Shown piece by piece: positions 5,770 to 23,346 of a stretch of DNA of 64,000 nt. Below the pieces are notes generated by a model. It was not told the origin of the DNA, did not search any database, and saw only the letters and a program-made list of their open reading frames with translations. Source of the stretch: Ralstonia sp. SET104 (GTDB lineage: Bacteria > Pseudomonadota > Gammaproteobacteria > Burkholderiales > Burkholderiaceae); NCBI RefSeq assembly GCF_003851545.1, contig NZ_BHVX01000007.1:1-64000 (forward strand). Reading direction: 5' to 3'. Positions within the stretch are counted from its first letter, which is position 1. Every line of letters starts with the position of its first letter. Made by a program: the position numbers and the translations under genes.

Positions 5770-6591
5770 TCAAATCAGTGTTCGGACGATCATGCCCAAG
5801 GCTACAGCGCCCGCAAACGCGGCAAATCCTTGCTGCAGCGCCGGCCCTGCCAAATGCCGTGCAAAGCGCCGCCCTAGCAGCATGCCGGTCAGCGCACCTG
5901 CGGCGAATGGCAACGCGATATGCCAATCGACATGCCCGCCGATGGCCGAGGCGACCACGCCGCCGGCGGACACCAGCGCGATCACCGCCAGCGAGGTGGC
6001 GACGATGGTCTGCATCGGCAGATCGGTTGCGCGGCGAAGGGCGGGCACGATGACGAAGCCGCCGCCCACGCCCAGCAATCCGGAGAGGAACCCCGCACCC
6101 GCGCCGGACGCGGCCAGTGCGCGTGCGCACGGTAGCGTCCAGACCAGCTTGGCGGTGGTGGTATCGAGATGACAGGGCGGTGCCATCCGTCTTGGCTGGG
6201 GCTCGGTTGACGGTACGGCGCGCGCTTGCCGGAACATGCGCATCGCCACATAGGCGAGCACCGCTGCGAACAGCAGCGTCAGCGGCGTGTTGGGCACGCG
6301 GTGCGCAACCCAGATGCCGAATGGCGATACCACCACACCGCACAGCGCCATCAGTCCCGCAGCCTTGTAGCGGACCTTGCCCTCACGCAAGCCGAGCATC
6401 GCACCGAGTCCGGCGGACAGCCCCACAGCCAGCAGTGCAATCGGCGCGGCTTGCGACACCGACAGATGCAACCCAAAGATCAGCAGCGGCACCGCGACAA
6501 TGGCGCCGCCCGCGCCCGTCAACGCCAGGATGAGCCCCACCACCGAGCCCAGCCCTGCGCTGATGATCCAACCCGCTTCCATTGGTGACAT
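5770..6591 (-). CDS. TauE/SafE-family sulfite/sulfur-species exporter
   Basis: The 273-residue protein is an integral inner-membrane permease of the TauE/SafE (DUF81) family, whose members export sulfite, sulfonates or related anions. It shows about eight hydrophobic segments in two halves, each starting with a glycine-rich repeat (VVGLILALTGAGGAIVAVP near the N-terminus and GFLSGLLGVGGGFVIVPAL in the second half), the inverted-repeat signature of the family. The start ATG lies two bases after the bigR stop, so bigR and this gene form one transcript. With Blh encoded divergently, the expected cargo is sulfite or thiosulfate from persulfide oxidation; the cargo is inference. Confidence 0.88.
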   Translation of the reverse strand: MSPMEAGWIISAGLGSVVGLILALTGAGGAIVAVPLLIFGLHLSVSQAAPIALLAVGLSAGLGAMLGLREGKVRYKAAGLMALCGVVVSPFGIWVAHRVPNTPLTLLFAAVLAYVAMRMFRQARAVPSTEPQPRRMAPPCHLDTTTAKLVWTLPCARALAASGAGAGFLSGLLGVGGGFVIVPALRRATDLPMQTIVATSLAVIALVSAGGVVASAIGGHVDWHIALPFAAGALTGMLLGRRFARHLAGPALQQGFAAFAGAVALGMIVRTLI

Positions 6592-6593
6592 GG

Positions 6594-6977
6594 TCAACGC
6601 TCCGCCGGGGTGGATATCTTCTTCAAGACCTTGCCGCAATACAGTTCGGAGAGCGTCTGCATGATCTGGATGACCTCGAAGCTGGCGAGCCGGTAGTAGA
6701 TGTATTTGCCTTCGCGCCGTGTGGTGACCAGACCTTCGTCGCGCAGCACGCCCAGTTGCTGGGACAGGCTGGGCTGGTGCAGGCCCACCAGCGCTTCCAG
6801 TTCACCGACGTTGCGCTCGCCTTGCGTGAGTCGGCAGAGCAGCAGCAGGCGGTCTTCGTGGGCCATGGCCTTGAGCACGGCACACGCCTGCGATGCAGAC
6901 GCGCGCAGCATGGAAATGGCCGCCTCGGGCAGCGGCACAACGTTGGGGTCGGTAGTCGGGGCGATCGAATCGGTCAT
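6594..6977 (-). CDS. bigR: ArsR/SmtB-family sulfide-sensing repressor (BigR/SqrR type)
   Basis: A 127-residue winged-helix repressor. The ArsR DNA-recognition helix is LHQPSLSQQLGVLRDEGLV, followed by the wing TRREGKYIYYRL. It has C48 (LLLLCRL) and C114 (ELYCGK), exactly 66 residues apart as in the BigR pair C42/C108, which form the intramolecular polysulfide bridge that releases DNA; a third cysteine, C32, is extra. It is cotranscribed with the TauE exporter and divergent from blh across a region with an AT-rich palindrome. Metal-site residues of ArsR/SmtB sensors are not evident. Function is strongly supported by cysteine spacing and neighbours. Confidence 0.92.
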   Translation of the reverse strand: MTDSIAPTTDPNVVPLPEAAISMLRASASQACAVLKAMAHEDRLLLLCRLTQGERNVGELEALVGLHQPSLSQQLGVLRDEGLVTTRREGKYIYYRLASFEVIQIMQTLSELYCGKVLKKISTPAER

Positions 6978-7069: not shown

Positions 7070-7086
7070 GTTTGCGAAAGCCCGCC

Positions 7087-7947
7087 ATGCATGCCCAGAT
7101 CGAACCCTTCTACGACCCCGATACCTGCACCATGACTTATGTGGTGCACGCAGGGCCCGGCACACCATGCGCTGTGATCGATTCGGTACTCGACTACGAT
7201 CCAAAATCGGGCCGTACGACGACCCGTTCAGCAGATCGCGTTGCCGCATTTATCGAAGCGCAGGACTTGCGCATCGAGTGGCTGCTGGAGACCCACGCGC
7301 ATGCCGATCACCTGTCGGCCGCTCCGTACCTGCGTGGGCGCTTCGGCGGGCGCATTGCCATTGGCGAGCGCATTAGCGTGGTGCAGGGCGTGTTCAAACC
7401 GGTCTTCAATCTCGAGCCGTCGTTCCAACTTGATGGCTCGCAGTTTGATCACCTGTTTGCGCCTGACGAGGTCTTCCATATCGGCAATCTGGAAGCAAAG
7501 GCGCTGGCCGTGCCGGGTCATACGCCGGCCGACATGGCTTATCAGGTGGGCGACGCGGTGTTTGTGGGCGACACGCTGTTCATGCCGGACGTGGGCACCG
7601 CGCGCTGCGATTTTCCCGGCGGGGATGCTGGCACGCTGTACCAGTCGATTCGCAGTCTGCTGGACTTGCCGCCGCAAACGCGGCTCTACATGTGCCACGA
7701 CTATCCGCCCGCCGGCCGTGAGGCCATATGCCACACCACGGTGGCCGAGCAGCGCCGCGCCAACATCCACGTGCGCGATGGCGTGACCGAAGCCGAGTTC
7801 GTGCAGATGCGCACCACCCGCGACGCGACGCTCGGCATGCCGACGCTGATGCTGCCGGCCATCCAGGTCAACATCCGCGCAGGCATATTGCCGCCGGCTG
7901 AGCAGAACGGCGTGCAGTACCTCAAGATTCCGCTGAACGCGCTGTAG
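7087..7947 (+). CDS. blh: Beta-lactamase-like hydrolase / persulfide dioxygenase (Blh, ETHE1-like)
   Basis: The 286-residue metallo-beta-lactamase-fold protein oxidises glutathione persulfide to sulfite in characterised relatives. The metal-binding motif HAHADH spans residues 70-75, further ligands are H145 (PGHTPAD), D162 (GDTLF) and H204 (MCHDY); in the ETHE1 family the first, third and last bind a single ferrous iron. The C-terminal VNIRAGILPP segment is typical of bacterial Blh. The protein ends there and carries no DUF442 domain, unlike Blh of Xylella or Agrobacterium. It starts at ATG 7087, just after the AT-rich palindrome; an open frame reaching back to 6700 runs through bigR and is not real. 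Confidence 0.93.
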   Translation: MHAQIEPFYDPDTCTMTYVVHAGPGTPCAVIDSVLDYDPKSGRTTTRSADRVAAFIEAQDLRIEWLLETHAHADHLSAAPYLRGRFGGRIAIGERISVVQGVFKPVFNLEPSFQLDGSQFDHLFAPDEVFHIGNLEAKALAVPGHTPADMAYQVGDAVFVGDTLFMPDVGTARCDFPGGDAGTLYQSIRSLLDLPPQTRLYMCHDYPPAGREAICHTTVAEQRRANIHVRDGVTEAEFVQMRTTRDATLGMPTLMLPAIQVNIRAGILPPAEQNGVQYLKIPLNAL

Positions 7948-11952: not shown

Positions 11953-12969
11953 TCAGCCGTTGCGGAAGATGAAGCTGTACGCATTAAGGGCTGGTACGCC
12001 GCCCAGATGGGCATAGAGCACGCGCGAGCCTTCGGGGAATTCGCCGTTGCGCACCATGTCGATCATGCCGTGCATGGATTTCCCTTCGTACACCGGGTCG
12101 GTCAGCACGGCTTCCTGGCGTGCGCACAGGCGAATGGCTTCGAGCGTGCCCTCGTTGGGCAGGCCGTATTCCGGGCCGCCGTAGCGCGTGTCGAGCACCA
12201 CGTCTTTCTCGGTGATGTCGCGGCCGAGGTCGACCAGTTCGGCCGTGTTCTGCGCAATGCGCAGGATCTGCGCGCGCGTCTGAGCGGGCTTGGCCGACGC
12301 ATCGATGCCGATCACCTTGTCGGCGCGGCCATCCGCCGCAAAGCCCACGACCATGCCGGCCTGCGTGCTGCCCGTAACCGAGCACACCACGATGTAATCG
12401 AACTTGAAGCCCAGTTGCGCTTCCTGCTGCCGCACTTCTTCGGCAAAGCCCACAAAGCCCAGGCCGCCGAGCGGATGTTCCGAGCAACCGGCCGGAATCG
12501 GGAACGGCTTGCCGCCGCGCTTGCGCACGTCCTCCATGGCCTGTTCCCAGCTCGGGCGGATGCCAATGTCGAAGCCAGCCGCATCGAGGCGTACATCCGC
12601 GCCCATGATCCGCGACATTTCGATGTTGCCGACGCGGTCGTACACGGCGTCGGAATAGTTCACCCAGTTCTCCTGCACCAGCACGCACTTGAGCCCGAGG
12701 TGTGCTGCCACGGCAGCGACTTGGCGCGTCTGGTTCGACTGAATGCCGCCAATGGAAACCAGCGTGTCGTATCCGCCTTCCAGCGCTTCCGGAATCAGGT
12801 ATTCCAGCTTGCGCGTTTTGTTGCCGCCGAAGGCCAGGCCGCTATTGCAGTCCTCGCGCTTGGCATACAGCTCCACTTTGCCGCCCAGGTGTGCGCTCAG
12901 CCGTTTCAGTGGCTGGATGGGCGTTGGCCCAAACGTCAGGGGATAACGAGGAAATCTCTGCAGGTTCAT
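11953..12969 (-). CDS. acdS: 1-aminocyclopropane-1-carboxylate deaminase
   Basis: The PLP enzyme (EC 3.5.99.7) opens ACC, the ethylene precursor of plants, to 2-oxobutanoate and ammonia. The product has 338 residues, the standard length. K51 (GGNKTRK) is the PLP lysine and S78 (GIQSNQ) the nucleophilic serine; Y294 and E295 (VYEGKSMHG) and L322 (AHLGG) are present. E295 and L322 are the accepted residues separating true ACC deaminase from D-cysteine desulfhydrase, which has other residues there. AAGGAG lies seven bases before ATG 12969. It is divergent from the Lrp-type regulator acdR, the usual arrangement. The activity suggests life near plants, though it may also serve in D-amino-acid use. 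Confidence 0.96.
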
Positions 12970-13114: not shown

Positions 13115-13636
13115 ATGAAAAAAGGCGGAACAAAATTGCAGGATGCGTCCGGCGATGCGGTGGCTTCTGCGCGCCACGCCTTGGATCGCACCGATCGGGC
13201 GATTCTCAGGGCACTTCAGCGCGATGCGTCCATCTCCAACGTCGCGCTCGCGGCCAAGGTGAGCCTGAGCCCGCCGGCCTGTCTGCGCCGGGTGGAACGG
13301 CTCAAGGCGCTGGGGCTGATCAAGGGGATCGTTGCGCTGCTCGATCCGCGTGCGCTGGATCTGGGGTCACTGGTGATGATCGGCGTCGTGCTGGATCGCT
13401 CGACGCCGGAATCCTTCGCGGCATTTGAGAAGGCGGCGCAGAAGGTCTCAGGCTGCCTGGAATGCCATGTCGTGACCGGCGAGTTTGACTACTTCATGCT
13501 CGTGCGCACGAAAGACAGCGAGGGTTACAACCGCCTCCATGCCGAACAGTTGCTGTATCTGCCAGGCGTGCGGCAAATCCGGACGTTCATGGTGCTCAAG
13601 CAGGTGCTGTCCACGACGGAACTGCCGGTGGCGTAA
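13115..13636 (+). CDS. acdR: Lrp/AsnC-family activator of acdS
   Basis: A 173-residue Lrp/AsnC regulator: helix-turn-helix with VALAAKVSLSPPACLRRVERLKALGLI, then the RAM ligand-binding beta-alpha-beta domain containing ECHVVTGEFDYFMLVRTKD and VRQIRTFMVLKQV. Genome position directly divergent from acdS identifies it as AcdR. ATG 13115 is chosen; an in-frame TTG at 13091 would add eight residues and overlaps the operator. About 20 residues of extension precede the HTH. It ends four bases from the convergent cysteine desulfurase fusion gene. Confidence 0.9.
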   Translation: MKKGGTKLQDASGDAVASARHALDRTDRAILRALQRDASISNVALAAKVSLSPPACLRRVERLKALGLIKGIVALLDPRALDLGSLVMIGVVLDRSTPESFAAFEKAAQKVSGCLECHVVTGEFDYFMLVRTKDSEGYNRLHAEQLLYLPGVRQIRTFMVLKQVLSTTELPVA

Positions 13637-13640
13637 GGCT

Positions 13641-15119
13641 TCAGGCCTTGCGTTGATCCGTCAGGCGGTTCCAGAGCATTCCAGCCCGGTTCCCGCTTTT
13701 GCAATAGGCGAGGATGGGCTTGGGCAACGTGTCGACCAATGCGCCAAATGCCTCGACATCTGCATCGCCAATGCCATTCGGTTCGACCGGCAGGTAGCGC
13801 GCCTGCATACCCAGTTCGCGGGCAGCAGCGGCAATGTCTTCAAACGTGGGCTGATCAATGCTCTCGCCGTCAGGACGATTGCAGATCACCGAGCGGAAAC
13901 CTGCACTGCGGATGGCTTTCAAGTCCGCCGGAGTGATCTGCCGCGAAGCGGTCAGGCCACTGGATGCCGTGGCCTGGCATTGCTCGATCGCGCGCTCAAA
14001 GCAGGCGATCGCAAAGTCGATGTCCTGCTCCGTCGCAAAGCGGCCAAGGCTGATGCGCACGGTGCGGCCCGCCGCATCTGCATCCAGGCCGATGGCCGAC
14101 AACACATGAGAAGGCGTGCCCGCGGCGGAGTTGCACGCCGATGTGGATGACACGGCAAGATCGTCGCCCAGCATCATCGGGAAGAAGCCGGGCGCATTGA
14201 CCGTCAGGCTCAAGGTATGGGGAATGCGCCGTGCTACGTCGGCGTTCTGCACCACATCGCCAAGCGCAAGAACCGATGCCTTCAGCCGCTGGCTCAGCGC
14301 CGAAATGCGGGCGATTTCCTGTGCAAGGTCTTCCGCCGCCAACTCGCACGCGACGCCCATGCCGACAATCTGATGCGTTGCCAGCGTGCCCGAGCGCAGG
14401 CCGCGCTCGTGTCCGCCACCGTGGATTTGCGGCGCAATTTGCGCTGCGATTTCGCGGCGGACGAACAGCGCGCCGATCCCCTTGGGGCCATACACCTTAT
14501 GGGCAGACATCGACAGCATGTCGATGCCGAGCGCACGCACATCTATCGGCGTTTTGCCGAGCGCCTGTGCAGCATCGACATGGAGCAGCGCGCCTGCGGC
14601 GTGCACGATCTGCGCAATCGCACGAATGTCAGTCAGCGTGCCAAGTTCATTGTTCACCAGCATCAGCGATACGAGGCCGGTTTCGGGGCCAATCGCCGCG
14701 GCTACTGCATCAGCGCTGATTTCGCCCTCGCGGGTCGGGCAGAGATAGGTCACCGAGCAGCCGCGCGCCGAGAGGTTCGCCATCGTGTCCAGAACGGCCT
14801 TGTGCTCAATGCGGCTGGTGATGAGGTGGCGCTTGCTTGTGGCCGTGTCAGCGTAGCCTTTCAGCGCAAGGTTGTTGGATTCGGTCGCGCCCGACGTCCA
14901 GATGATTTCGTCGGCATCCGCACCAATGAGCTTGGCGACCTGCTCGCGTGCGTGCTCAACTTTGTTCCGTGCAACACGGCCGGTTGCGTGCGAACTCGAC
15001 GCCGGGTTGCCGAACGCGCCTTCCATGCCAAGGCAGGCTGTCATCGCTGCAATCACGCGAGGGTCGGCCGGCGTTGTGGCTGCGTAGTCGAGGTAATGCA
15101 AGGTGTTGGTGTCGCTCAT
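13641..15119 (-). CDS. Cysteine desulfurase fused to a DUF442 (TIGR01244-like) sulfurtransferase domain
   Basis: A 492-residue two-domain protein. Residues 1 to about 385 form a fold-type-I PLP cysteine desulfurase of the NifS/IscS class: PLP lysine K208 in SAHKVYGPKG, HVDAAQ in the cofactor pocket, and catalytic C329 in SSTSACNSAAG on the mobile loop. Residues of about 393-492 form a complete DUF442 domain (QITPADL, VICNRPDGE, ending in AYCKSGNRAG with thiol C473), a phosphatase-like fold seen on or beside Blh persulfide dioxygenases. No scaffold, ferredoxin or chaperone genes of the Isc system are nearby. The divergent regulator resembles cysteine-responsive DecR. A likely job is persulfide transfer from C329 to C473 during cysteine breakdown; this is inference. 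Confidence 0.92.
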   Translation of the reverse strand: MSDTNTLHYLDYAATTPADPRVIAAMTACLGMEGAFGNPASSSHATGRVARNKVEHAREQVAKLIGADADEIIWTSGATESNNLALKGYADTATSKRHLITSRIEHKAVLDTMANLSARGCSVTYLCPTREGEISADAVAAAIGPETGLVSLMLVNNELGTLTDIRAIAQIVHAAGALLHVDAAQALGKTPIDVRALGIDMLSMSAHKVYGPKGIGALFVRREIAAQIAPQIHGGGHERGLRSGTLATHQIVGMGVACELAAEDLAQEIARISALSQRLKASVLALGDVVQNADVARRIPHTLSLTVNAPGFFPMMLGDDLAVSSTSACNSAAGTPSHVLSAIGLDADAAGRTVRISLGRFATEQDIDFAIACFERAIEQCQATASSGLTASRQITPADLKAIRSAGFRSVICNRPDGESIDQPTFEDIAAAARELGMQARYLPVEPNGIGDADVEAFGALVDTLPKPILAYCKSGNRAGMLWNRLTDQRKA

Positions 15120-15182
15120 TTTGTTTTCTTGCTGCGGTAGGGGCAGGAAAATGATACGGCGGATGATCCAGAAAAATAATTT

Positions 15183-15209
15183 AAAGTTTCCTTCGAATTT
15201 GGAAACTTT
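15183..15209. promoter_or_regulatory. Perfect palindrome between the desulfurase fusion and the DecR-like gene
   Basis: AAAGTTTCC (15183-15191) and GGAAACTTT (15201-15209) are perfect inverted repeats separated by nine bases. A further GGAAAGTTTTC follows at 15212. This sits 64 bp from the desulfurase start and 55 bp from the regulator start, the expected position for an Lrp-family operator controlling both genes. Confidence 0.7.
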
Positions 15210-15263
15210 GCGGAAAGTTTTCTCTAAAATTGAGATTTTATAGAAGCTGATTTCTGAATCGAA

Positions 15264-15734
15264 ATGGATGCCATTGACCGCGAATTACTGAGGCTGTTGC
15301 AGGCCGACGCAACGCTGCCTATTGCAGAACTCGCGCAGCGCGTGAATCTCTCGCAGACACCGTGCTGGAAGCGGGTGCAACGGCTCAAGGACACGGGGGT
15401 CATCCGCGCGCAGGTGGCGCTGTGCGATGCGCGCAAACTGGGTGTCGGTACGACAGTGTTTGTTGCTGTTCGAACTGACCAGCACACGGAAAAGTGGGCG
15501 CAGCGTTTCACGCAGGTGGTGCGCGACATGCCGGAAGTGGTTGAGGTCTACCGGATGAGCGGCGAAATGGACTATCTGTTGCGCGTTGCCGTAGCCGGCA
15601 TTGAAGACTACGACCGCGTCTACAAGCACCTCATTAAGGCCGTGCCGCTCTCGGATGTGAGTTCATCGTTCTCGATGGAGCAGATCAAGTATTCGACTGC
15701 GTTGCCGGTGCGCGATGGTGGTCAGGCGGATTGA
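15264..15734 (+). CDS. Lrp/AsnC-family regulator resembling DecR/CyuR (cysteine-responsive)
   Basis: A 156-residue Lrp-family protein: HTH with LAQRVNLSQTPCWKRVQRLKDTGVI, then RAM domain with MPEVVEVYRMSGEMDYLLRV and the C-terminal SSFSMEQIKYSTALPV. From memory these segments (TPCWKR, MPEV, GE-DYL-RV, SSF-MEQIKY-T-LP) closely follow E. coli DecR/YbaO, which senses cysteine and activates cysteine breakdown. It is divergent from the desulfurase-DUF442 gene across a perfect palindrome, which fits activation of that gene by excess cysteine. Identity should be confirmed by alignment. Confidence 0.85.
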   Translation: MDAIDRELLRLLQADATLPIAELAQRVNLSQTPCWKRVQRLKDTGVIRAQVALCDARKLGVGTTVFVAVRTDQHTEKWAQRFTQVVRDMPEVVEVYRMSGEMDYLLRVAVAGIEDYDRVYKHLIKAVPLSDVSSSFSMEQIKYSTALPVRDGGQAD

Positions 15735-21175: not shown

Positions 21176-22012
21176 CTATCGAGACACTTCCGCGGCGACC
21201 ACGTCGTGTTCACGCGCAAAGGCGATCAGTGCGTCGAGTGTGCCGTCTGGGCATTCTCCCATGATGGCATGCCCGCCCGGCAGGCCGACAATGCGGCTGC
21301 CCGCCAGTCCCGCCGCGACTTGGCGGCCGGCTTTTGCGGGCGTCATCTGGTCTTTCTCACCCACGATTACAAGTGATGGGCACTTCACTGATGCCATGGC
21401 CTCGGCGCCGCGCGCGTAGGCATTGCAGGCGGAGAAATCTATGTGAAAGACCGGAGCGTCTGTGCCGTTTGCTACGCGTTCCATCAGCCGTTGGCTGCCG
21501 CCGTGCATCCAGAAACCCGGCCCGGGTGATGACGGCTTATTGGCCAGGCTGGAATGCGACCAGACATTCACCATATCGATAGCCACTGGTGTGTTGTTGA
21601 GCGCGGCGTCGAGCAGCGCATCCGACACCTTCATCGGCCAGGCTGTGGCCACCAGCGCGATCCGGCGTACGCGATCGGCGTATCGTGAGGCGCACTCCAG
21701 TGCAATCAGCGAACCCATGCTATGCCCCACCACCATCACCGGTTGCCTGACGCCCGTTGCCTGAACGAGCGCCATCACCCAGTCCGCCATGGCTTCCACC
21801 GTCTGCAGCGGTGTGCCAGCGCTGCGGCCGTGTCCGGGCAGATCAACCGCGAGCACGCTGAAACCGTGGTGTGCGAACCAGCGCGTCTGCAGACCCCAGA
21901 CCGAATGATCATTCTGCGCACCGTGCACGAACACGACACACGGCAGTTCCGCATTGAACGGTTTGCCGCCGGTATAGGCGTAGGCGCGCTCGCCTCGTAC
22001 GGTCCATTCCAT
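21176..22012 (-). CDS. Alpha/beta hydrolase
   Basis: A 278-residue serine hydrolase: oxyanion segment FVHGAQNDHSVW, nucleophile elbow GHSMGS, acid in VIVGEKDQMTP and histidine in GGHAIMGE. The start codon overlaps the metY stop (TGATG), so the gene is translationally coupled to metY. That linkage suggests a thioester or homoserine-ester substrate, but the sequence does not give the substrate, and a role like homoserine acyltransferase (MetX) is not supported by its length. Confidence 0.85.
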   Translation of the reverse strand: MEWTVRGERAYAYTGGKPFNAELPCVVFVHGAQNDHSVWGLQTRWFAHHGFSVLAVDLPGHGRSAGTPLQTVEAMADWVMALVQATGVRQPVMVVGHSMGSLIALECASRYADRVRRIALVATAWPMKVSDALLDAALNNTPVAIDMVNVWSHSSLANKPSSPGPGFWMHGGSQRLMERVANGTDAPVFHIDFSACNAYARGAEAMASVKCPSLVIVGEKDQMTPAKAGRQVAAGLAGSRIVGLPGGHAIMGECPDGTLDALIAFAREHDVVAAEVSR

Positions 22013-23346
22013 CAACGGGCTCCGGTTGCGTTGGGAGCGGCCTTTCCGGGCGCGGCGGACATCGCGCGCTCGGCAGCTTTCAGGCCGCGCTTGAGATCGT
22101 CGATCAGGTCGTCGGCATCCTCCAGGCCGATCGACAGGCGGATCGTGCCTTCACTGATGCCGGCTGCGGCCAGCGCATGCGCATCCATGCGGAAATGCGT
22201 GGTTGATGCCGGATGGATGACCAACGACCGCGCGTCGCCCACATTGGCCAGGTGCGAGAACAAACCGAGCGATTCAATGAACTGCTGGCCCGCACGCCGA
22301 TCGCCACGCAGGTCGAAGCTGAACACTGCACCGCTGCCGCGCGGTAGCAGGCGTTTCGCAAGCGCGTGATCCGGGTGCGATTCCAGTTCAGGGTAGGCGA
22401 CTGACGCCACCATCGGATGGCTCGCCAGGAAAGCGACGACGCGGCGCGTGTTTTCCACATGCCGCGCCATGCGCAGCGGCAGCGTTTCGATGCCTTGCAG
22501 CAGTTGCCATGCGGCCATCGGGTTCATGCACGCGCCGAAATCGCGCAGGCCCTCGCGCCGAGCGCGCAGCAGAAAGGGGGCGACAGTGCTTTCCTCGGCA
22601 AACACCATGTCGTGGAAGCCCGCGTACGGCTCGGTCAGCTCGGGGTGCTTGCCGGCGGCCACGTAGTCGAACGTGCCGCCGTCGACCAGCACGCCGCCGA
22701 TGGTTGTGCCATGCCCGCCCAGGAACTTGGTGGCCGAGTGATAGACGAGGTCTGCGCCGTGGGCGAATGGCTGCAGCAGCCACGGTGTGGTGAAGGTCGA
22801 ATCGACTAGCAGCGGCACGCCCGCATCATGCGCAATCGATGCAATGGTCGGGATGTCGAGCACATCCAGCCCCGGGTTGCCGAGCGTCTCACCAAACAGC
22901 AGCCGTGTGTTTGGGCGGATGGCAGCGCGCCAGCCGTCGATATTGCCGGGCTTGACGAAGGTCGTCTCGATGCCGAAGCGGCGCAGCGTGTAATGCAGCA
23001 GATTGTGCGAGCCGCCATAGAGCGCAGAGGAGGCGACGATATGCGAGCCCGCGCCCATCAACGTAACGATGGCCAGATGCAGCGCTGCCTGGCCCGAAGC
23101 CGTAGCAATGGCGCCAACGCCGTTCTCAAGCGACGCCGTGCGTTCTTCGAACACGGCAACGGTCGGGTTGGAGATGCGCGAGTAGACGTGGCCCGCGCGT
23201 TCCATATTGAACAATGACGCCGCGTGTTCGCTGTCGCGGAACACAAAGGACGTGCTCAGGTGGATGGGCGTGGCGCGCGCGCCGGTGGCCGGGTCGGGCG
23301 CGGCACCGGCATGCAGGGCCAGCGTGTCGAAGCGGGCTTTGGACAT
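22012..23346 (-). CDS. metY: O-acetylhomoserine aminocarboxypropyltransferase (O-acetylhomoserine sulfhydrylase)
   Basis: A 444-residue Cys/Met-metabolism PLP enzyme that makes homocysteine (or methionine with methanethiol) directly from O-acetylhomoserine and sulfide. Visible are the N-terminal FDTLALHAGAAPDPATGARA, the PLP lysine in YHSATKFLGGHGTT, and the inserted FGACMNPMAAWQLLQGIETL segment typical of the long MetY branch rather than the approximately 390-residue MetZ/MetB. I start at ATG 23346; ATG 23394, with GGAG ten bases upstream, would add 16 residues. Coupled to a downstream alpha/beta hydrolase. A consumer of sulfide in a genome region rich in sulfur genes. Confidence 0.92.
   Translation of the reverse strand: MSKARFDTLALHAGAAPDPATGARATPIHLSTSFVFRDSEHAASLFNMERAGHVYSRISNPTVAVFEERTASLENGVGAIATASGQAALHLAIVTLMGAGSHIVASSALYGGSHNLLHYTLRRFGIETTFVKPGNIDGWRAAIRPNTRLLFGETLGNPGLDVLDIPTIASIAHDAGVPLLVDSTFTTPWLLQPFAHGADLVYHSATKFLGGHGTTIGGVLVDGGTFDYVAAGKHPELTEPYAGFHDMVFAEESTVAPFLLRARREGLRDFGACMNPMAAWQLLQGIETLPLRMARHVENTRRVVAFLASHPMVASVAYPELESHPDHALAKRLLPRGSGAVFSFDLRGDRRAGQQFIESLGLFSHLANVGDARSLVIHPASTTHFRMDAHALAAAGISEGTIRLSIGLEDADDLIDDLKRGLKAAERAMSAAPGKAAPNATGAR

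Follow-up and report, generated by a model that had tools for sequence, protein, structure and literature searches.

What becomes of cysteine sulfur when a cysteine desulfurase carries a sulfurtransferase-type domain on the same chain? The question is raised by one gene in a stretch of 64,000 nucleotides from Ralstonia sp. SET104 (contig NZ_BHVX01000007.1, positions 1 to 64,000), the whole of which is called the window below. This gene (13641..15119, minus strand) encodes, as a single unbroken open reading frame (ORF) of 492 amino acids, a cysteine desulfurase fused to a C-terminal DUF442 domain. Based on its domains, conserved residues and relatives, we give a probability of about 0.6 to the reading that the product is a desulfurase-sulfurtransferase relay which would feed persulfide oxidation, in cysteine catabolism rather than iron-sulfur (Fe-S) assembly. 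To our knowledge, the aerobic disposal of excess cysteine without sulfide flooding is poorly settled; if the reading is true, a desulfurase holding the sulfur as a protein-bound persulfide, to be passed to a dioxygenase that uses oxygen, would solve this cleanly, the surplus not being released as toxic sulfide. With both domains on one chain, the desulfurase-DUF442 partnership can also be tested directly, and there is reason to seek free DUF442 proteins as desulfurase partners elsewhere.

Domain structure of the fusion protein

Residues 8-368 (14016..15098, minus strand) were matched by Pfam family PF00266 (Aminotran_5) with 256 bits and an E value of 7e-76. The lysine K208 (codon 14496-14498, minus strand) and cysteine C329 (codon 14133-14135, minus strand), which a previous sequence-only reading of this region had assigned to a NifS/IscS-type desulfurase, were confirmed at these positions. 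This half of the protein thus combines the class V aminotransferase fold, the pyridoxal phosphate (PLP) lysine K208 and the loop cysteine C329 of a group I (IscS/NifS-like) desulfurase. Residues 388-484 (13668..13958, minus strand) were matched by PF04273, formerly DUF442 and at present named BLH_phosphatase, with 76.3 bits against a gathering cut-off of 26.1 (profile positions 8-104 of 110). The earlier claim of a DUF442 domain with C473 on the same polypeptide was borne out by this match; its placement at residues 393-492 was not exact, the match starting at 388 and ending at 484. The catalytic loop of this domain is C473-K-S-G-N-R478 (CX4R), with codons 13701-13703 for C473 and 13686-13688 for R478 (minus strand).

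With the NCBIfam sulfur transferase model TIGR01244 the window fusion scored 85.3 bits, just below the cut-off of 85.85, and the fusion of a related locus (L051) scored above it (89.3 bits). By sequence match alone, the DUF442 half resembles the solved structure 2f46 (E 2e-15). In an AlphaFold2 model of the monomer (mean pLDDT 89.4) both halves form ordered folds, and the last helix of the desulfurase (364-387) leads almost directly into the first DUF442 strand at 389. Foldseek matched the model to 1p3w (E 4e-41, 49% identity), with the IscS fold and catalytic residues in common; the Foldseek and VIA-align rows are desulfurases and cover essentially the desulfurase half only. The closest named relatives of the fusion protein are from Ralstonia species (87-91% identity), and the source genome is an assembly of 4.8 Mb in 58 contigs. 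A frameshift artefact joining two genes, which would have undone the earlier reading of a single gene, is ruled out because 51 of 249 genomes sampled from the family have full-length matches, all free of internal stops and with the catalytic residues kept.

Separation from IscS and Fe-S assembly

The genome has its own iscS, whose product is 50% identical to the desulfurase part of the fusion and whose gene adjoins iscU on another contig (C4); the single NifU_N match in the genome is also there, beside iscS. The C-terminal tail of IscS has a role in docking IscU. This tail, which ends in SIQWAAH in the 405-residue IscS of this genome, is absent from the fusion and from six inspected orthologues without DUF442. 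The fusion also fell far under the IscS equivalog cut-offs of NCBIfam (429 bits against 643 for TIGR02006, 443 against 548 for NF010611). A role in Fe-S assembly was rejected because of the missing tail, the location of iscU and these sub-threshold scores, in agreement with the earlier suggestion of a role apart from it.

Distribution, conservation and origin of the fusion

The 51 full-length fusions fall in four genera: Ralstonia (g1, 14 of 16 genomes) and three read as Burkholderia (g12, 25 genomes), Trinickia (g25, 6) and, from the tree, Cupriavidus (g3, 6). A further 45 of the 249 genomes have an unfused version of the same desulfurase (58-73% identity, no DUF442; 380-394 amino acids in those inspected). 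Among 300 genomes sampled from the order, matches at E<=1e-118 were found in three, every one inside the family; no close relative was found outside it at this threshold, which would miss more distant ones.

H106, D182, Q185, K208, C329, C413, C473, G476 and R478 are invariant in 87 of 87 fused rows, of which 59 are distinct, some loci having been entered twice. Values of dN/dS from 0.08 to 0.28 for the desulfurase and DUF442 halves in seven pairs indicate purifying selection on both. The fusion is the sole PF04273 match (E<=0.001) in all 14 fused Ralstonia genomes, and at least one additional match is present in 21 of the 25 fused Burkholderia genomes.

In a desulfurase tree of 80 rows the fused label changes three times. 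A single clade of all fused rows was rejected in a chosen subset of 38 rows (p-AU 0.00025), for a group that had been named after the first tree was seen, and an unfused Cupriavidus sequence is nested in a fused clade of this 38-row tree. In the DUF442 tree a single fused clade was not rejected (p-AU 0.37). Loss and one to three gains of the domain are thus all possible histories. Neither blastp of ORFs nor tblastn found a remnant or free DUF442 beside unfused orthologues in the loci examined.

DUF442 domains and related systems

Two DUF442 domains of other proteins have a described chemistry. That of Xylella Blh is a sulfurtransferase which takes sulfur from thiosulfate and works in coupling with the dioxygenase on its own chain (PMC5823870), and that of the Cupriavidus pinatubonensis SQR makes thiosulfate from GSSH (glutathione persulfide) and sulfite, with C94 essential and R99 beside it (PMC6441731). 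The CX4R loop is common to the latter and the window domain, and was found at all 33 loci with a DUF442 blast match, two of the 33 being the desulfurase fusion itself. The view in the sequence-only reading that DUF442 is mainly a companion of Blh was too strong: the full Blh model exceeded its cut-off in only 2 of 200 genomes of the phylum, and DUF442 is fused to other partners as well. Six fusions to SQR-like flavoproteins were confirmed by Pfam as DUF442 with a pyridine-nucleotide oxidoreductase domain; in the DUF442 tree this label was set by length and position, and two rows carrying it (L177 and L178) are actually Blh. At L203:2115-3623 (minus strand), in a small-genome relative of genus g13, DUF442 was observed at the C-terminus of a TsuA/YeeE-like sulfur transporter (PF04143), and four g13 genomes have a DUF442 frame of 506-511 amino acids.

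The desulfurase fusion would be a variant of the known desulfurase-rhodanese fusion type, with DUF442 as its second domain. A desulfurase and a sulfurtransferase on one chain are no new concept, since CD-Rhd of Pseudorhodoferax sp. was described in 2022 (PMC8931425). As far as published description allows comparison, CD-Rhd (54 kDa; PMC8931425, PMC12319549) shares with the present protein of 492 residues the order of the two domains on one chain, the presence of two catalytic cysteines (C334 and C466 in CD-Rhd) and the proposed relay in cis; a CX4R-type loop seems to be common to both. Its rhodanese cysteine C466 is the proposed sulfur acceptor, and mutation of C466 lowers desulfurase activity about 10-fold with glutathione, a biochemical argument for a relay of this type (PMC8931425). 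It differs in that the second domain is named rhodanese, the letters DUF being absent from the text of that paper, and in that the available passages of its two papers give no linkage to a dioxygenase or a regulator (PMC8931425, PMC12319549). The open PMC literature yielded no paper pairing desulfurase with DUF442 terms, in a search that could miss other wording or papers outside PMC.

The DUF442-SQR proteins of the C. pinatubonensis type likewise join DUF442 to a persulfide-producing enzyme, but they take sulfur from H2S through a flavoprotein and carry DUF442 at the N-terminus, whereas the fusion would take it from cysteine through PLP and has DUF442 at the C-terminus (PMC6441731). From the Blh/bigR operon of Xylella and Agrobacterium (PMC5823870) the elements DUF442, dioxygenase, BigR-type repressor and TauE are all present in the window, where DUF442 sits on the desulfurase and the dioxygenase is separate. 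The two are not on one chain as in Blh, and the fusion matches the Blh model NF040641 (cut-off 625) at residues 387-483 only, with 65 bits.

Putative genes for persulfide oxidation and sulfite export

Three genes of the window that the sequence-only reading had overlooked stand about 6-8 kb from the fusion. The first (7084..7947, plus strand) encodes a persulfide dioxygenase-like protein of the metallo-beta-lactamase fold, 287 amino acids without DUF442, which matches the dioxygenase half (141-423) of NF040641 with 381 bits. Next to it are an ArsR-family regulator gene (6594..6977, minus strand), for which BigR was the best model at 99 bits, under the cut-off of 155, and a gene for a protein of the TauE/SafE sulfite-exporter family (5770..6582, minus strand). 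Another dioxygenase of this type was noted at G000:C1:30102-30956, with 69% identity to that of the window.

The linkage of this proposed downstream enzyme to the fusion in the window itself is no more than suggestive. In Ralstonia the two genes are 5.7-11 kb apart in 10 of 14 genomes (one by a partial match). Of the other four genomes, two have the dioxygenase on a different contig from the fusion, one has it at a distance of 850 kb, and one has just a weaker, unplaced match. Because of this variable distance, the other contigs and the 850-kb case, the linkage in Ralstonia must be called weak.

A neighbourhood survey for selected sulfur and regulator genes covered one locus in each of the 51 genomes with the fusion and in 23 of the 45 with the unfused enzyme (74 loci), with flanks of only about 1.5-1.8 kb at 13 Ralstonia loci and with neighbour genes called by a purpose-written codon-bias gene caller rather than taken from curated annotation. 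A dioxygenase gene directly 3' of the fusion was found at 3 of the 51 fused loci, all in Trinickia, and at 0 of the 23 unfused ones. The three are G059, with a gap of 25 bp measured in locus L081, G088, with the same offset, and G078, with an overlap of 4 bp, the one seen in L051. Assuming two such genes per 6000, the rough chance of three adjacent dioxygenases in 51 loci is 1e-7; since two of the three loci are near relatives, the figure for two in 51 is also given (4e-5). These three genomes support a catabolic or oxidative sulfur role, in line with the catabolic one that had been proposed from the sequence. The dioxygenases of L081 and L051 are 66-79% identical to those that adjoin genes for DUF442-flavoproteins in relatives (Pfam confirmed L193; L210 and L211 were judged by length), and only 55-60% identical to that of the window. 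A match to the dioxygenase is present in 46 of 51 fused and 120 of 198 other genomes (Fisher p 3e-5), a difference which is confounded by kinship and was not used as evidence.

A TauE gene lies directly downstream of the unfused orthologue at 4 of 23 loci, and at 0 of 51 fused ones, which suggests that sulfite export is coupled to the same enzyme without DUF442. Such TauE/SafE genes were seen at L042:4885-5730, L089:7223-8029 and in loci L247, L250 and L251, L089 and L251 being probably the same locus.

The divergent regulator

The Lrp-family gene at 15264..15734 (plus strand, 156 amino acids), divergent from the fusion gene, encodes a protein 54.7% identical over 150 amino acids to E. coli DecR (NC_000913). 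Among the eight Lrp-family genes of the genome it is the best match of DecR, and among the three E. coli proteins DecR, Lrp and AsnC its own best match is DecR, with which it also groups in a tree of 12 rows (support 95/91) that leaves out one of the eight genes, its row being truncated. By reciprocal best match and tree the regulator is assigned as the DecR/CyuR orthologue, in line with the resemblance noted before. In E. coli, DecR (CyuR) is the cysteine-responsive activator of the cysteine-degrading cyuPA operon (PMC9040844). The orthologue is divergent from the fusion in all 14 fused Ralstonia genomes; in the remaining two Ralstonia genomes, which are 88-90% complete, both the fusion and any DecR match at E<=1e-45 are absent. 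The intergenic region (15120..15263) contains a 9-bp inverted repeat, AAAGTTTCC / GGAAACTTT, at 15183-15191 and 15201-15209; in aligned Ralstonia relatives the GGAAACTTT arm alone is mostly conserved.

In another genus, a DecR-like gene (L044:6868-7332, 54% identity) is divergent from an unfused desulfurase at one of the 23 unfused loci, perhaps an independent pairing. In L051 the fusion-dioxygenase pair has upstream of it a gene that on visual inspection looks LysR-type (L051:4546-5445), so that control there may fall to a regulator different from DecR.

Proposed function and alternatives

From the domains, conserved residues, orthology and neighbourhoods observed, we infer the following chemical steps, direction of transfer and regulation. 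The PLP domain would convert L-cysteine to alanine and leave a persulfide on C329, from which the sulfur would pass to C473 of the attached DUF442. The next acceptor would be either a small thiol, probably glutathione with GSSH as the product, or sulfite, in which case thiosulfate would form. A separate dioxygenase would oxidise GSSH to sulfite, which would leave the cell through a TauE-type carrier. DecR/CyuR, as cysteine sensor, would activate the fusion gene in Ralstonia.

Several observations weigh against this relay. The unfused desulfurase of the 45 genomes makes DUF442 dispensable. Direct linkage of the dioxygenase is limited to one genus, at three of its six fused loci, and at the other 48 fused loci the dioxygenase does not directly follow; in the window it is 5.7 kb from the fusion with unrelated genes between, and five of the six fused Cupriavidus genomes have no match to it at E<=1e-50. 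Outside Ralstonia, none of the 37 fused loci has DecR next to the fusion in the flanks examined; DecR-like genes are present in 184 of the 249 genomes, unlinked to the fusion outside Ralstonia, and eight such sites viewed by eye had no evident sulfur genes. A scan of 15120..15263 for the published E. coli CyuR motif found none above chance, the best site having 13 of 23 matching positions, equalled by 299 of 300 shuffles, against 22 of 23 and 0 of 300 for the E. coli control. With no motif and a linkage essentially confined to Ralstonia, DecR/CyuR control over the fusion, as in the earlier reading, is put forward here as a proposal.

The fusion might instead be a generator of GSSH, protein persulfides or H2S, whose raised levels would serve redox protection or signalling, oxidation being a side path. 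Such a role was suggested by the authors for the Pseudorhodoferax CD-Rhd (PMC8931425), and in E. coli the H2S formed from cysteine under CyuR influences how well stress and drugs are tolerated (PMC11408624); the adjoining dioxygenase at three fused loci and TauE at four unfused ones point rather to sulfite disposal, and the generator is considered rather unlikely. A biosynthetic relay, in which the C473 persulfide supplies tRNA thiolation, molybdenum cofactor or thiamine synthesis as IscS does with TusA, ThiI and YnjE, would suit a desulfurase whose fold is closest to IscS-type enzymes, and relays of this kind have been described (PMC8931425). By eye, from the first 45-60 residues of the neighbours, no thiolation or cofactor gene was noticed in 21 loci, no family search having been aimed at one. 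The adjacent sulfur genes, where present, serve oxidation, export or uptake, and the enzyme is patchy within the family, which is odd for housekeeping, so that we regard a biosynthetic role as distinctly unlikely.

Two further explanations would deprive the second domain of any part in sulfur transfer or of a special function. The Pfam name BLH_phosphatase could indicate a phosphatase-like or regulatory domain. The loop of protein tyrosine phosphatases is CX5R, not the CX4R found at all 33 loci with a DUF442 blast match. The fold is common to both (PMC5823870), yet two DUF442 domains have been tested as sulfurtransferases (PMC5823870, PMC6441731), and a DUF442 that carries no sulfur is here highly improbable. 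A neutral pairing of domains and genes, with the regulator beside it by chance, would fit the variation of gene context between genera and the existence of enzymes of the same clade that lack the domain; it is very unlikely in view of the purifying selection on both halves and the catalytic residues kept in all fused rows.

The disposal relay may be placed in a wider scheme, which is put forward tentatively. DUF442 could be a detachable sulfane-sulfur acceptor in Burkholderiales, joined in turn to H2S through SQR, to a TsuA/YeeE-like transporter and to cysteine through the desulfurase, with the acceptor placed where IscS has its C-terminal tail. The desulfurase version might then found a route which turns cysteine into sulfite with oxygen and without free sulfide, and would be the aerobic equivalent of CyuR-CyuA. 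The E. coli system and the Ralstonia locus share an orthologous cysteine-sensing regulator, whose gene in Ralstonia adjoins that of a cysteine-degrading type of enzyme; CyuA, a cysteine desulfidase, differs in being quickly poisoned by oxygen and in releasing H2S (PMC9040844). A PF03313 search of the genome found no CyuA, its single match reading as L-serine dehydratase.

Other neighbouring genes

An amino-acid ABC transporter is encoded upstream of the fusion at two of six fused Trinickia loci and three of 12 named Burkholderia loci, which speaks in favour of the disposal relay. These two Trinickia loci are the two of the 51 fused survey loci with this cystine-type transporter, which is upstream in 0 of the 25 Burkholderia loci of g12. 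A cystine model was the best match of its binding protein, below cut-off, and a cystathionine-beta-lyase-like gene was found at four of the five loci with a cystine-type transporter.

Near the fusion in the window lie the ACC (1-aminocyclopropane-1-carboxylate) deaminase gene acdS (11953-12969, minus strand; TIGR01274, 657 bits) and, divergent from it, an Lrp-family gene (13115-13636, plus strand), probably acdR. At 10 of 14 fused Ralstonia loci the fusion is accompanied by the two genes; acdS is at 0 of the 37 other fused loci, one of which has a 36% Lrp-family match nearby. A pathway tie was rejected and acdS/acdR is treated as an independent module, because its pairing with the fusion is limited to Ralstonia loci. 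One more sulfur-metabolism gene of the window, at 22012-23346 (minus strand), encodes an O-acetylhomoserine aminocarboxypropyltransferase (NF006004, 869 bits).

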